Assembly: GCF_027912455.1 (NCBI RefSeq)
Contig: NZ_CP115446.1
Coordinates: 1,325,501-1,389,500 of the forward strand
Length of the DNA: 64,000 bases
Reading direction: 5' to 3'
Source: Aurantiacibacter sp. MUD61
GTDB lineage: Bacteria; Pseudomonadota; Alphaproteobacteria; Sphingomonadales; Sphingomonadaceae
Shown here: in pieces, positions 47,769 through 55,168 of the stretch
How the letters are laid out: every line of letters begins with the position of its first letter
Position numbering within the stretch: position 1 is the first letter of the stretch
Made by a program: the position numbers and the translations under genes
Notes under the pieces: model-generated
The model's input: only the letters and a program-made list of their open reading frames with translations
What the model was told of the DNA's origin: nothing
Databases searched by the model: none

Positions 47769-48241
47769 TGGCCCGTCGAGCGTCCGCCTTGTTCGCTGTA
47801 ATTGCTCTATTCGCGGCCACGCCAGCAGTTGCGTGTATGGCCGATGGCCCCGAAGGCTACGTTACTGGCTTGGTGTGGGTGAACGAACCGTCGGAAGTTC
47901 CTGAGGGTGCAATCAGCTTGCGTGCGCGTTTGGAAAGACCAATCTCCGGTACATGGATGGGCTTTGTTGCGACAGTCCTGGATGGCCCGTCCGAAATGCG
48001 CGGTCAGCAAATCGATGTCATACCTCAAAACCTGACTTCATGTGTCGGGCTGGGGGTCCGCGAGGGCTATCTCGTGGTTTATGCTGAGCCAGTGGAAGCA
48101 GCGACCGATGCTGGTCCGCGATCTTTCTACGAGGCGATCGATTATCGGCCATCAGAGGAAAATGAGCGGCAAAGACGTCGTGGGGGCGAGCAGTGGCTGT
48201 ATCCGGGCGAGCCGGCCACAAGGGAAGAGTTCTCGTTTTGA
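47768..48241 (+). CDS. Exported hypothetical protein between ruvA and ruvB
   Basis: The 157-residue protein starts on the last base of the DsrE stop (TGATG). The signal peptide ends near VAC or AC-MAD ([17 protein letters not shown]), so it may be a lipoprotein or carry a free Cys at the mature N-terminus. The mature part includes a Tyr/Glu-rich segment and [20 protein letters not shown]. No family is recognised. Base composition is lower in GC than ruvB. Its stop overlaps the TTG start of ruvB. Confidence 0.55.
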
Positions 48242-49266
48242 CCGACCAATCCATCCACACCCCTGATCGCCAGCCGGACGATCCTGACGCGGCGCTGCGG
48301 CCCAAGTCGCTTACCGAGTTCATCGGGCAAGAGGCTGCGCGGGACAATCTACGCGTCTTCATCGAGGCTGCCCGCAAGCGCGGGGAAGCGATGGATCATA
48401 CGCTGTTCTTCGGGCCGCCCGGTCTCGGCAAGACAACACTCGCTCAGATCATCGCCAAGGAATTGGGCGTCGGCTTTCGCGCAACATCTGGCCCGGTGAT
48501 CGCCAAGGCGGGTGACCTCGCAGCGATCCTCACCAATCTCGAACCGCATGATGTGCTCTTCATCGACGAGATTCACCGGCTCAATCCGGTGGTCGAGGAA
48601 GTGCTCTATCCGGCGATGGAGGACCGCGCGCTCGACATCATAATAGGGGAAGGTCCGTCGGCTCGCAGTGTGCGGATCGACTTGCCGGCATTCACGCTGG
48701 TCGGGGCGACGACGCGGCAGGGCCTGCTCACCACGCCCTTGCGCGATCGCTTCGGCATTCCGGTGCGCCTGCAGTTCTACACCGAGAATGAGCTGTCCGA
48801 AGTCGTGCGGCGCGGGGCGCGATTGCTCGATGTCGCCATGGCCGATGAAGGTGCTCGCGAGATTGCCCGCCGTGCCCGCGGAACGCCGCGTGTGGCGGGG
48901 CGCCTGCTGCGCCGGGTGCGGGACTTTGCGCAGGTGAAGGGAAGCGGCGAGGTTACTGCCGATATCGCCGATGAAGCGCTGACCCGGCTGGAGATCGACT
49001 CCCTCGGCCTCGATGCGATGGATCGCCGCTACCTCACCATGATTGCAGAGACCTATAAAGGTGGTCCGGTGGGGGTGGAAACGCTTGCGGCTGGCCTCGC
49101 CGAGCCGCGCGACACGGTGGAGGAAGTGGTTGAGCCGTACCTCATCCAATTGGGCCTGATCGCACGGACTGCGCGCGGGCGCTGCCTCAACGATGGCGGA
49201 TGGAATCACCTGGGAATCACCCCGCCATCGGCACCGCAAAGTGGTCTTTTCGACAGCGGAAAGTGA
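48238..49266 (+). CDS. ruvB: Holliday junction branch migration DNA helicase RuvB
   Basis: The 342-residue AAA+ motor drives branch migration with RuvA. Walker A is [14 protein letters not shown], Walker [12 protein letters not shown], sensor region [18 protein letters not shown], and the C-terminal wing has [30 protein letters not shown]. The likely start is a TTG overlapping the previous stop; it gives the usual family length and has GGAAGAG upstream. Confidence 0.97.
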
Positions 49267-49499
49267 GCTTTGGCGTTAACGGCTTCTTCGGGATTCACCC
49301 GGTTTCGGTTCCATTGTGGGACAGACCTGTGCTGCGCCGCAAAAAACTGCCACTTTCTTGGTTAACACAGGCTTGAATCGCGGCTTAAGGGATTGCCCAA
49401 TCCGCTTTTGCAAGTCTCTCTGGCACGAAGCGGAAAAGGCCGTCGGCTCCACTAAGGGGGCTGCAGGCTGCTTCCGATGAATGAAGAGAGACCAAGCGC

Positions 49500-51230
49500 A
49501 TGTCAGTACGCATGGCCATTGCAAAGCTCAGCGCCGCAGCAGCCGGCGGAGCGATCATCGGTGGGGGCGCCGTTCACGTGGCAGAGCCACAGACCTCGCA
49601 TGTCCGGTACAAATCGGATGAGAATGAGGGTGGGGAGCCGCAGCTCGTCGATGTGAAGACGGAAGGCGAAACGGTCGCCCGTCGTGAAATCCCGCGCGAA
49701 CCCCGCGCCCAGCGCCGTCTGCGCCGCACGATCGAGCGCGCGCCGGAATGCTGTGAGGAAGAATATGCGCTCGCGGGCGTACCGCTTCCGCTTCCGCAGC
49801 TTCCCTCCGCGCCCGTGCGCGGTGGTGGCGGTGGCCAGCCGGTGATTATCGGCGGTTCGGGCGGCTTTGGCGGCGGCTTCGGCGGTGGTTTCTTTGGCGG
49901 CTTCTTCGGTGGCGGCGGCGGCGGTGGTGACGCCAGCGCAGTTGTCGATATGAGCACCACAACCACCACAACGACAGGTGGCGAACCGCAACCGCCTTCG
50001 ACTTCCGGCTCGCCTCCGGGCTCACCTCCTGGCTCGCCTCCGGGCTCACCTCCAGGCTCTCCGCCGACAAGCACGACCACTTCCGGTGGCGAAAGCTCGG
50101 GCGGCATCAACATCATCATTGACATCGACAACAGCTCGACCGGATCGTCGACTTCGACATCAAGCTCGGGCGGTTCTACGTCTACATCGGGCGCTGTCTC
50201 CAGTTCGAGTTCCGGCGATGTCAGCAGCTCTTCGGGCAATGTGACGAGCACAAGCTCGACCGGTGAATTCTCGAGCACGACCTCCTCCTCGACCGGCGGC
50301 GTAACGAGCACGACGACCAGTTCGTCCGGCAGCATCACCAGTACGAGCGGGACGGTGACCAGCACATCTGGCCAGGTGTCCAGCACAGGCTCGTCGTCCG
50401 GCAATGTGTCCTCCTCGACCAGCGGTTCGAGCTCGTCCTCGACATCCTCAAGCACCTCGGGTGGCAGCGGATCGAGCACTTCGACCAGCAGCGGCACGAG
50501 TGGCACATCCGGTACTTCGGGAACGTCTGGCACAAGCGGAACCTCTGGAACGAGCGGCACGACCGGTCATCCGGGCACAACCACAGGCGGCATGACGACG
50601 TCCGGCACCACGACCACGGGCGGGATCACCAGCTCGGGTGGCTCGACCACGTCCTCGTCCTCGGGCAGCAGCACGAGCACGACGAGCGGGAATGTGACGT
50701 CCAGCACCACCACCGGCGGGAACACCACCTCGACCACCTCGGGCGGCGTGACCAGCACGAGCGGCAATGTCAGCACAAGCGGCGGTATCACCTCGACGAC
50801 GACCTCCACCGGTGGATCGAGCGGTACTTCTGGCGCGAGCGGCAGCACCAGCACCGGCGGTGTGACGAGCACCACGACCACCAGTTCGGGCAGCATCAGC
50901 AGCACGAGCGGAACGGTGACGAGCACCACCGGTCAGGTGAGCAGCACCAGCTCCTCTTCGGGTAACGTCTCGAGCTCTACCAGTGGATCAAGCTCGACAT
51001 CGACCAGCACCTCAACCTCGACGAGCACGTCCTCCTCGACGAGTACATCGAGCGGTACTTCGGGAACCAGCGGTACATCCGGCACGAGTGGCACTTCGGG
51101 CACAACCGGCACGCCGGTCCCGGCACCGGGCATGATGCTGCTCTTCGGCGCGGGTGCAGGCGCGGTATTCCTGCGCCGCCGCCGCAAGGATGGCAGTGAG
51201 GCTGAGGAAGGCGAACTCGAGACCGCTTAG
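49500..51230 (+). CDS. Ser/Thr/Gly-rich repetitive surface protein with PEP-CTERM-like C-terminus
   Basis: The 576-residue product has an N-terminal hydrophobic stretch (KLSAAAAGGAIIGGGAV), a charged region with a CC pair (ERAPECCEEEYALAG), a Gly-Phe block (GGFGGGFGGGFFGG), a short (SPPG) repeat run, and about 330 residues of Ser, Thr and Gly repeats, including long SGT runs. The end is VPAPGMMLLFGAGAGAVFLRRRRK. This is a PEP-CTERM-like sorting signal (VPEPG-type motif here VPAPG, then a membrane segment and Arg-rich tail), normally read by an exosortase, which is not in this window. Such proteins often become heavily glycosylated envelope or biofilm material; that is inference. Confidence 0.7.
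   Translation: MSVRMAIAKLSAAAAGGAIIGGGAVHVAEPQTSHVRYKSDENEGGEPQLVDVKTEGETVARREIPREPRAQRRLRRTIERAPECCEEEYALAGVPLPLPQLPSAPVRGGGGGQPVIIGGSGGFGGGFGGGFFGGFFGGGGGGGDASAVVDMSTTTTTTTGGEPQPPSTSGSPPGSPPGSPPGSPPGSPPTSTTTSGGESSGGINIIIDIDNSSTGSSTSTSSSGGSTSTSGAVSSSSSGDVSSSSGNVTSTSSTGEFSSTTSSSTGGVTSTTTSSSGSITSTSGTVTSTSGQVSSTGSSSGNVSSSTSGSSSSSTSSSTSGGSGSSTSTSSGTSGTSGTSGTSGTSGTSGTSGTTGHPGTTTGGMTTSGTTTTGGITSSGGSTTSSSSGSSTSTTSGNVTSSTTTGGNTTSTTSGGVTSTSGNVSTSGGITSTTTSTGGSSGTSGASGSTSTGGVTSTTTTSSGSISSTSGTVTSTTGQVSSTSSSSGNVSSSTSGSSSTSTSTSTSTSTSSSTSTSSGTSGTSGTSGTSGTSGTTGTPVPAPGMMLLFGAGAGAVFLRRRRKDGSEAEEGELETA
50295..50434 (+). repeat. Internal duplication within the repetitive protein, copy A
   Basis: Encodes about 47 residues starting GGVTSTTTSSSGS and ending at GNVSSSTSGSSS. 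A second copy at 50856-50996 encodes a nearly identical peptide with about five changes, while many third codon positions differ. This is a protein-level repeat, not a recent DNA copy. Confidence 0.6.
50856..50996 (+). repeat. Internal duplication within the repetitive protein, copy B
   Basis: Encodes about 47 residues starting GGVTSTTTTSSGS. It matches copy A closely at the protein level. Runs of SGT follow both copies, so the unit may be longer. Confidence 0.6.
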
Positions 51231-51254
51231 GTCTCTTTCAGCGGCTGAAAGCAG

Positions 51255-51287
51255 AAGGGCGGTCGCAACCGGCCGCCCTTTTCTTTT
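51255..51287 (+). terminator. Rho-independent terminator of the repetitive protein
   Basis: AAGGGCGG and CCGCCCTT form an 8-bp stem with a 10-base loop, followed by TTCTTTT. It lies 25 bases after the repeat protein stop and before the convergent oxygenase gene. Confidence 0.8.
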
Positions 51288-51295
51288 GGCTTCGA

Positions 51296-52009
51296 TCAGA
51301 CGTAGCCGTTGATCAGCCGCCAGGGGTCCTCGCGGAACCACAGTGTCACGATGTGCTTGATACCGCGCGTCACGGGCATGCCCGCATGCAGCGTTTTCAT
51401 ATTCGGACGTCCGTCGGGCAGCATGTTGTTCCAGAGCAGCAAGCGGCCCGGCTCTGGTCGAATGCGCAGGTCCAGATGCGGAAAATCGGTCTCTCCGCCC
51501 TCGCGCGGCTGGTTGAGCGTCAGCATCGCTGTCCAGGTGCGCTGGCCGCCGTGGGTCGCTTCATGTTGCCAATAGCGCTCGCCCGTGTGGAAGAAATCGA
51601 AGTGATGCGTGTACTGCTGGCCCTTCTGATAGCGTTGCCCCTGCATGCGCTCGGCATGCAGGATATCGAGCCCTGCTATCTCGCAGATATAACGTTCCAG
51701 CTCGCTCGTGTGCGGATTACCGGGTTCGAAATGGTGTGTATTGCTGGTGCGGATCGTCACCTCATTCTCGCCTGCTAGGGTGGAAGGAACCGCATTCGCG
51801 TTGATCTCGCGGATGATATGCTTGCAGTCAGGACCGGTCAGAAACCGGTCGATCTGATACACTTCCGCGAGCCGTGTCGGCAGGCGCATCGCCTCCTTGA
51901 CTTGCCCGAGTGAGCTGCGCACCTGATGGCCGATTGCAGCCAGCTTCTCGCGGTCGCAATCGGTGTCTTTGCTCGTCTTGGAGCTGGCCAGAGAGGCTTC
52001 ATTCCCCAT
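51296..52009 (-). CDS. Prolyl 4-hydroxylase-like 2-oxoglutarate/Fe(II) dioxygenase
   Basis: The 237-residue protein is in the 2OG-Fe(II) superfamily, prolyl-4-hydroxylase alpha type. Iron ligands are His136 and Asp138 in THHFDFF and His208 in LHAGMP; Lys218 in RGIKHIVTLWFRE is the 2-oxoglutarate anchor. The GRLLLWNNMLPDGRPN and GGETDFPHLDLRIRP blocks are typical. It is convergent with the SPPG-repeat protein. The substrate cannot be read from sequence; peptidyl proline is possible but other targets are equally likely. Confidence 0.85.
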   Translation of the reverse strand: MGNEASLASSKTSKDTDCDREKLAAIGHQVRSSLGQVKEAMRLPTRLAEVYQIDRFLTGPDCKHIIREINANAVPSTLAGENEVTIRTSNTHHFEPGNPHTSELERYICEIAGLDILHAERMQGQRYQKGQQYTHHFDFFHTGERYWQHEATHGGQRTWTAMLTLNQPREGGETDFPHLDLRIRPEPGRLLLWNNMLPDGRPNMKTLHAGMPVTRGIKHIVTLWFREDPWRLINGYV

Positions 52010-52064
52010 GGGCCGGGGTATGGCAGAATCCGGTCAATATTCCTTTAAATGGCGCGTAGGCCGA

Positions 52065-52493
52065 TCAGCTTTCGGGTGAAGTAATCACCTCGCCGCCAGC
52101 AGCATCCCACGCCTGAATGCCGCCTTCCAGATGGCGCACGCGCGTGCCGAGGTAGCTGGCGAGCTGCTCTGCCGCGATACCCGAACGGCGACTGCTGCCG
52201 CAGTATAGGATCGTTTCACGCTCGGCTTCGATCGGGATGCTTGCCGGCACGAACGTCTGCAGCGGCGCATTGAGCGCGCCGGGCAGGCGACCTGCGGCAA
52301 ACTCTTCCGGCGTGCGCACATCGATCAGCACGACTTCGCCCGCTGCGATCAGCGCCATCAGCTCGGAAGCGGGCAGCGTTTCGACCGAAGCCTGCTCCGA
52401 GGCTATCTCTTCCTGCGCCGCCGGTGTGGTGGCGCAGGAGGAAAGAGCCAGCGCAAATGCAGGGACTGCGATCAACGCCGCTCCGAGCCGCAT
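52065..52493 (-). CDS. Rhodanese-like domain lipoprotein
   Basis: The 142-residue protein has a signal peptide with lipobox LSSC, then a single rhodanese domain: VVLIDVRTPEEFAAGRLPGALNAPLQ, active-site loop YCGSSRRSGIAAEQLA and HLEGGIQAWDAAGG. The catalytic Cys is present. It would be an envelope sulfur transferase or a phosphate-type rhodanese fold protein. It starts two bases after the acnA stop and may be co-transcribed with it. Confidence 0.88.
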   Translation of the reverse strand: MRLGAALIAVPAFALALSSCATTPAAQEEIASEQASVETLPASELMALIAAGEVVLIDVRTPEEFAAGRLPGALNAPLQTFVPASIPIEAERETILYCGSSRRSGIAAEQLASYLGTRVRHLEGGIQAWDAAGGEVITSPES

Positions 52494-52495
52494 GA

Positions 52496-55168
<2,673 letters not shown>

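Follow-up and report, generated by a model that had tools for sequence, protein, structure and literature searches.

A prolyl 4-hydroxylase-like oxygenase co-varies with a proline tract in a neighboring PEP-CTERM protein of Aurantiacibacter and relatives: a probable enzyme-substrate pair

Collagen and the plant cell wall provide the most familiar examples of a prolyl hydroxylase paired with a proline-rich substrate. Prolyl 4-hydroxylases (P4Hs) are also common in bacterial genomes, but to our knowledge few of them have a known physiological substrate, and for the Chlamydomonas P4H we know of no neighboring substrate gene. Here, we describe a candidate pair in a 64,000-nucleotide stretch of the complete 2.97-Mb genome of Aurantiacibacter sp. 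MUD61 (the window; G000:C1:1325501-1389500, with G000 the source genome). The pair consists of REP, a Ser/Thr/Gly-rich exported-type protein, and a 2-oxoglutarate (2OG)-Fe(II) oxygenase of a group that we call class A, encoded by convergent genes with 65 bases between them. Because a proline tract in REP and the class A gene tend to come and go together among related genomes, the enzyme probably modifies the tract.

Among described enzymes, the type I P4H of Chlamydomonas reinhardtii (3gze, 2jig, 2jij) is ~28% identical to the window oxygenase over 192 aligned residues. It has been solved with (Ser-Pro)5; two loops enclose the peptide in a tunnel, and Tyr140 touches the target proline (PMC9676403, in the part available). 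The P4H of Bacillus (5iax, 5hv0, 3itq, 5v7y) is, like the window enzyme, bacterial, small and single-domain. Unlike the window enzyme, its reported target is EF-Tu (title of 5v7y), and a co-varying surface-protein neighbor is not reported in the sections of the literature examined. The substrate examples for bacterial P4Hs in the available parts of four papers taken jointly are EF-Tu, for the Pseudomonas enzyme, and synthetic (PPG)n peptides, namely (PPG)5 and (PPG)10 for the Bacillus enzyme (PMC9676403, PMC8968730, PMC4543633, PMC4295552). A literature search in a partial library returned no report in which a bacterial P4H and a PEP-CTERM surface protein co-vary as a pair, nor any study of proline hydroxylation in surface proteins of the PEP-CTERM type or of sphingomonads. 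For the pair described here, the chemistry would be known, while the substrate, the setting and the co-evolution would be new.

REP, the proposed substrate, is an open reading frame of 576 aa (49500..51230, + strand) with relatives in genus and family genomes. Its conserved N-terminal domain (49500..49910, +; alignment A1, 9 sequences) begins with MSVRMAIAKLSAAAAGGAIIGGGAVHVAE, in which a hydrophobic, signal-like stretch seen by eye is a putative export signal, and has a Gly/Phe-rich end. The proline tract EPQPPSTSG(SPPG)4SPPT (aa 162-190; 49983..50069, +) is the proposed hydroxylation site. It is followed by ~350 residues of almost proline-free Ser/Thr/Gly repeat region (50070..51113, +) and by the PEP-CTERM sorting signal PVPAPGMMLLFGAGAGAVFLRRRRK with tail and stop codon (51114..51230, +). 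At the DNA level, the SPPG tract is a 12-base tandem repeat of 4.4 copies with 85% matches. A PPGxPPG codon pattern had 3 overlapping matches in the six frames of the whole genome, all within the REP tract, and the reversed pattern, used as a control, had 1. The wider DNA pattern PPxxPPxxPP is its own reverse, which voids the control; its dozens of matches per genome in GC-rich DNA only suggest further coding stretches rich in proline or glycine. An earlier reading of this DNA from sequence alone (the sequence-only reading) had described an SPPG run ahead of a Ser/Thr/Gly region and a PEP-CTERM-like end. The first is as described, and the second is recognized by NCBIfam TIGR02595 (PEP_CTERM; aa 540-563, 21.5 bits, cut-off 16), with Pfam PF07589 falling below its cut-off (16.9 bits against 20.7).

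The class A oxygenase (51296..52009, - strand; 237 aa) has PF13640 (2.9e-15) as its sole Pfam match and no match in NCBIfam. The iron ligands H136-x-D138 and H208 as well as K218 are intact in the window enzyme and invariant in 8/8 class A rows and in 28/28 rows of alignment A3. By alignment position with solved P4Hs, Y127 and T174 are the equivalents of the Tyr and Thr that lie at the 2OG carboxylate, Tyr421 and Thr467 in human C-P4H-II (PMC9676403, in the part available), and Y133 is the equivalent of algal Tyr140. By analogy, H136, D138 and H208 would hold the iron, K218, Y127 and T174 would bind 2OG, and Y133 would contact the substrate proline. The best single-query sequence match among solved structures was the Bacillus P4H (1.8e-20). 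A profile of 8 class A sequences found 9 solved sequences at E ≤0.001, all of them P4Hs (bacterial, algal, human and viral) according to the depositors' names or, for 3gze, the entry title. The AlphaFold2 model (mean predicted local distance difference test score 89.2) has the double-stranded beta-helix fold of the P4H type. Foldseek and VIA-align both ranked the algal P4H with (Ser-Pro)5 first, VIA-align serving as a second look that leaves room for families missing from its list. Judged by sequence and predicted fold, the nearest solved relatives of the oxygenase are protein P4Hs and not enzymes for free amino acids or antibiotics, in keeping with the P4H layout and intact HxD...H...K residues that the sequence-only reading had assigned to it.

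REP relatives occur in 35/40 genomes of the genus and in 243/397 genomes of the family. The gene order ruvB, REP, [oxygenase], [rhodanese], aconitase is common to the fetched loci, across the genus and beyond. Because this ruvB-REP-acn order is conserved, adjacency alone can reflect shared ancestry, so that the proximity of oxygenase and REP is little evidence for a functional pair; we set it aside as such, and the caution that had accompanied the original proposal was well placed. Most REP genes are without such a neighbor, so the oxygenase is an optional addition to the locus. We scanned 213 loci, of which 137 had REP; collapsing identical proteins left 127, and dropping L320 and L334 (no aconitase stretch) and L098 and L322 (short REPs) gave a tree set of 123. 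Of the 243 REP-bearing family genomes, 80 further regions were fetched from the best-scoring listed, and a class A profile scan of named GTDB genomes, with the best 80 of 469 loci kept, yielded 15 with REP. Searching proteins with residues 1-120 of REP recovered a single relative from 3001 scored candidates, a limit of the tool, as genome searches find hundreds. Additional class A loci are listed by protein search, for example in Qipengyuania sp. ASV99 and Erythrobacter sp. GH1-10.

In a tree of 105 distinct oxygenase sequences, 32 REP-adjacent ones lie on one side of a branch and 73 non-adjacent ones on the other (Shimodaira-Hasegawa-like approximate likelihood-ratio test, SH-aLRT, 98). The split persisted (32 versus 83, SH-aLRT 97) when ten paralogs from G000, G033, G063, G080 and G202 were added. 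These trees are quick ones with SH-aLRT support only, and several rows are long-branched. Thus, the separation of the genes in relatives, or grouping of the oxygenase elsewhere, that would have spoken against a pair was not what we found. The REP-adjacent clade splits into class A (13 rows, SH-aLRT 95) and class B (19 rows, SH-aLRT 99). All 32 members converge on REP, and the nearest lies 14-385 bases away in the 29 loci having any; 3 loci have both classes. Outside the clade, the source genome encodes two further P4H-like paralogs, 38-39% identical (G000:C1:2132289-2132963, L145; 2207323-2207898, L146), and similar paralog pairs are present in many genomes of the genus.

As the measure of the tract, we took the highest proline count in a 30-residue stretch of the REP repeat region and set the cut-off at 10. 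A tract was present at 12/13 class A loci versus 5/110 other loci (Fisher p 5e-12, kinship ignored). On the tree of aconitase, class A changes at least 10 times. Among 10 independent pairs differing in class A, the tract differed in the same direction in 8.7 on average, in the opposite direction in 0.0 and not at all in 1.3 (sign test, median p 0.0039). Cut-offs from 4 to 12 gave the same picture, 6 and 12 being also checked on the aconitase tree. The result is weaker without the five loci found via the oxygenase scan, at 7/8 and a median p of 0.031 (range 0.031-0.125). Proline is the only residue that clearly differs between class A and other REPs. Class B, which is equally linked and convergent and serves as an internal control, showed no association with the tract on the same test. 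The REP N-terminal domain closest to that of the window (93%) belongs to G063, which has neither a clade oxygenase nor a tract, and the domains of G013 and G010 are 97% alike, G010 having class B only and no tract. These comparisons indicate that tract and class A arise on backgrounds otherwise like loci lacking both. The idea of a surface protein and its prolyl-hydroxylase modifier thus has support from co-occurrence in related genomes that goes well past mere closeness of the genes (about nine of ten pairs agree and none disagrees), while its second part, X-Pro-Gly as the specific target, is not supported.

The SPPG run is confined to the source species. The sister species (L068/G024), with an oxygenase 96% identical to that of the window, carries PPSSTGDPGAPPPSSTGDPGSPP at that position, without PPG, and PPG occurs in 5/13 class A REPs; X-Pro-Gly was therefore rejected as the defining target. 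The tract is GDFPPPSPPSSSG x3 in A. odishensis (G013), TTPPS x5 in G329, GPPP repeats in Erythrobacter fulvus, E. dokdonensis and G077, TGTPPTT in Novosphingobium aquimarinum, and NPPPPPTSSGD in a Novosphingobium metagenome-assembled genome. PPP is found in 11 of the 13 class A REPs, PPS in 9 and SPP in 8. Read from these sequences, the feature that recurs is PP with S, T, G or P as the next residue, and what the tracts share is the character of a flexible polyproline-type segment flanked by Ser/Thr, not that of a collagen repeat.

This segment can be compared with described proline-rich proteins. Prokaryotic collagen-like proteins share PPG triplets with the window REP, but collagen has Gly at every third residue (Gly-X-Y), whereas the REP repeats (SPPG, GPPP) have a period of four residues (the 12-base unit); a collagen-like triple helix is therefore not expected and was rejected. 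Extensins of plants and algae share with REP Ser beside Pro runs in an otherwise low-complexity extracellular-type protein. Their defining feature is a repeated Ser with 3-5 Pro after it (PMC4769139, in the part available); in the window REP, Ser is followed by only 2 Pro, and PPPSPPPP-like, extensin-resembling tracts occur in the REPs of G006, G013 and G109. With PEP-CTERM/exosortase proteins, REP shares the TIGR02595 match and an exosortase in the genome (one match, PF09721, 6.6e-66, 222.6 bits; G000:C1:2366211-2366960), and it scores highest of the 3 PEP_CTERM matches above cut-off. It departs from the norm in having the motif PAPG instead of PEP, besides the low Pfam score.

We consider it likely that class A hydroxylates prolines of the REP tract before export, the hydroxylation step and its site being what we infer from the co-variation. 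The oxygenase would be a dedicated protein P4H with the neighboring REP tract as its substrate. It has no evident signal sequence and so would meet its substrate as an unfolded chain in the cytoplasm. The extended, polyproline-helix-like tract would enter the substrate tunnel as in the algal enzyme, and prolines in PP-S/T/G/P would be hydroxylated, presumably at ring position 4, using Fe(II), O2 and 2OG. REP would then be exported, and the exosortase would handle its C end. Hydroxylation may stiffen the tract as a stalk or create sugar sites. More tentatively, the locus may represent a bacterial equivalent of the hydroxyproline-rich proteins of cell walls. A surface protein found throughout the family would repeatedly gain a tract along with a cytoplasmic prolyl hydroxylase of its own, hydroxylation and perhaps glycosylation of the tract would precede exosortase-dependent sorting, and class B would mark a second modification of the same protein.

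Several observations weigh against hydroxylation of the REP tract by class A. The tract cut-off was picked after seeing the data. In Croceibacterium salegens (G291; L129/L153), which has both class A and class B, the motif residues of class A are intact and the REP repeat region is free of proline. Conversely, a tract occurs in G202 and G033 (~99 and 100% complete) and G080 (85% complete) with no clade member in the genome, and G121 and G192 combine class B with polyproline near the REP C end. These exceptions fit gain or loss of one partner, yet they are real counter-examples. Also, the residue equivalent to algal Tyr140 is Phe in 3/8 class A rows (G329, G077 and G291). Finally, where a substrate has been published for a bacterial enzyme of the P4H type, it is EF-Tu (available part of PMC4543633; title of 5v7y).

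Another explanation is that class A acts on EF-Tu, a ribosomal protein or another proline-rich cell protein and that the REP tract is incidental. EF-Tu is among the substrates of bacterial relatives (titles of 5v7y and 4iw3; PMC4543633, in the part available), specificity in the P4H family can be loose, since in vitro hydroxylation by the Bacillus enzyme extends to (PPG)n peptides (PMC8968730, likewise in part), and class B holds the same place with no tract to act on. However, every genome has EF-Tu, while the distribution of class A is patchy and follows that of the REP tract, and the two P4H-like paralogs outside the REP clade are better housekeeping candidates, so we regard this explanation as unlikely. 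We give about the same low weight to linked inheritance, in which enzyme and tract would travel on one DNA segment as neighbors with no functional relation. They do lie within ~2 kb, the REP ends are identical between the class A species G000 and G024, and the Erythrobacter-group class A loci L150, L152 and L154 are each other's nearest REP relatives. Against this, at 10/13 class A loci the nearest relative of the REP N-terminal domain comes from a locus that lacks class A, and class B, equally linked, is uncorrelated with the tract. The tracts also vary by lineage (SPPG, TTPPS, GPPP, TGTPPTT, NPPPPPTSSGD) and sit near the C end in L151 and L155, which argues that no single tract block was handed on.

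There is also the possibility that the enzyme is inactive or non-prolyl, modifying another REP residue (for example in Ser/Thr/Asn/Asp repeats) or a free amino acid. Class B partners without prolines in the repeat region would fit this, as would the slight shifts in REP content of E (p 0.0055), C (p 0.0096) and G (p 0.0097) that accompany class B, although 23 tests leave none of them convincing. With peptidyl-prolyl enzymes as the closest structures and proline alone clearly differing with class A, we consider it very improbable. If instead class A does hydroxylate the REP tract, surface proteins with hydroxyproline would occur outside eukaryotes and viruses as well, and the SPPG, GPPP, PPPS and TTPPS variants of the tract would make a panel for probing how specific small soluble P4Hs are. 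Here the enzyme stands beside its likely substrate, and ~10 independent gains or losses provide a natural experiment on their link.

A tie between class B and poly-serine was also tried and rejected. The pattern in the genus was promising, but Ser runs of at least 12 occur in 8/16 class B rows versus 31/94 without class B, and the pairs on the tree split 2.4 versus 2.2. In L131 (G121) and L132 (G192), REP has two cysteine-bounded polyproline runs (CPPPPPPPPPC, GNCPPPP) just before the PEP-CTERM signal, with class B adjoining. At L129 (G291), L076 (G013) and L092 (G006), the interval from REP to aconitase holds a tandem of class A and class B genes, with A on the REP side. In L089 (G002), the REP frame is without the usual start and matches in two pieces; it may be frame-shifted or mis-assembled. 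The N-terminal domain of the window REP (49500-49910) is nearer to that of G063 (93%) than the species relationship predicts, while its last 45 residues are identical to those of G024, and the gene therefore looks mosaic.

Between the convergent genes lies a terminator-like hairpin with a T run (51253..51282, +; terminator scan), for which the evidence is weak, as the stretch has 3 such sites versus 2.4 expected. Rfam matched nothing in 48000-53000. Beyond the oxygenase gene, the locus continues with a rhodanese-like protein (52065..52493, -; PF00581, 6e-19), a flanking synteny anchor outside the proposed mechanism, and with the gene that we take to be aconitase (52496..55168, -; locus comparison), used for the aconitase tree. 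The oxygenase, rhodanese-like and aconitase genes (51296-55168, -) are co-directional with short gaps and may share one transcript. Aconitase leads towards 2OG; its place beside the oxygenase is probably a coincidence of synteny. In the nearest named relative, A. sediminis, the oxygenase is 96% identical.
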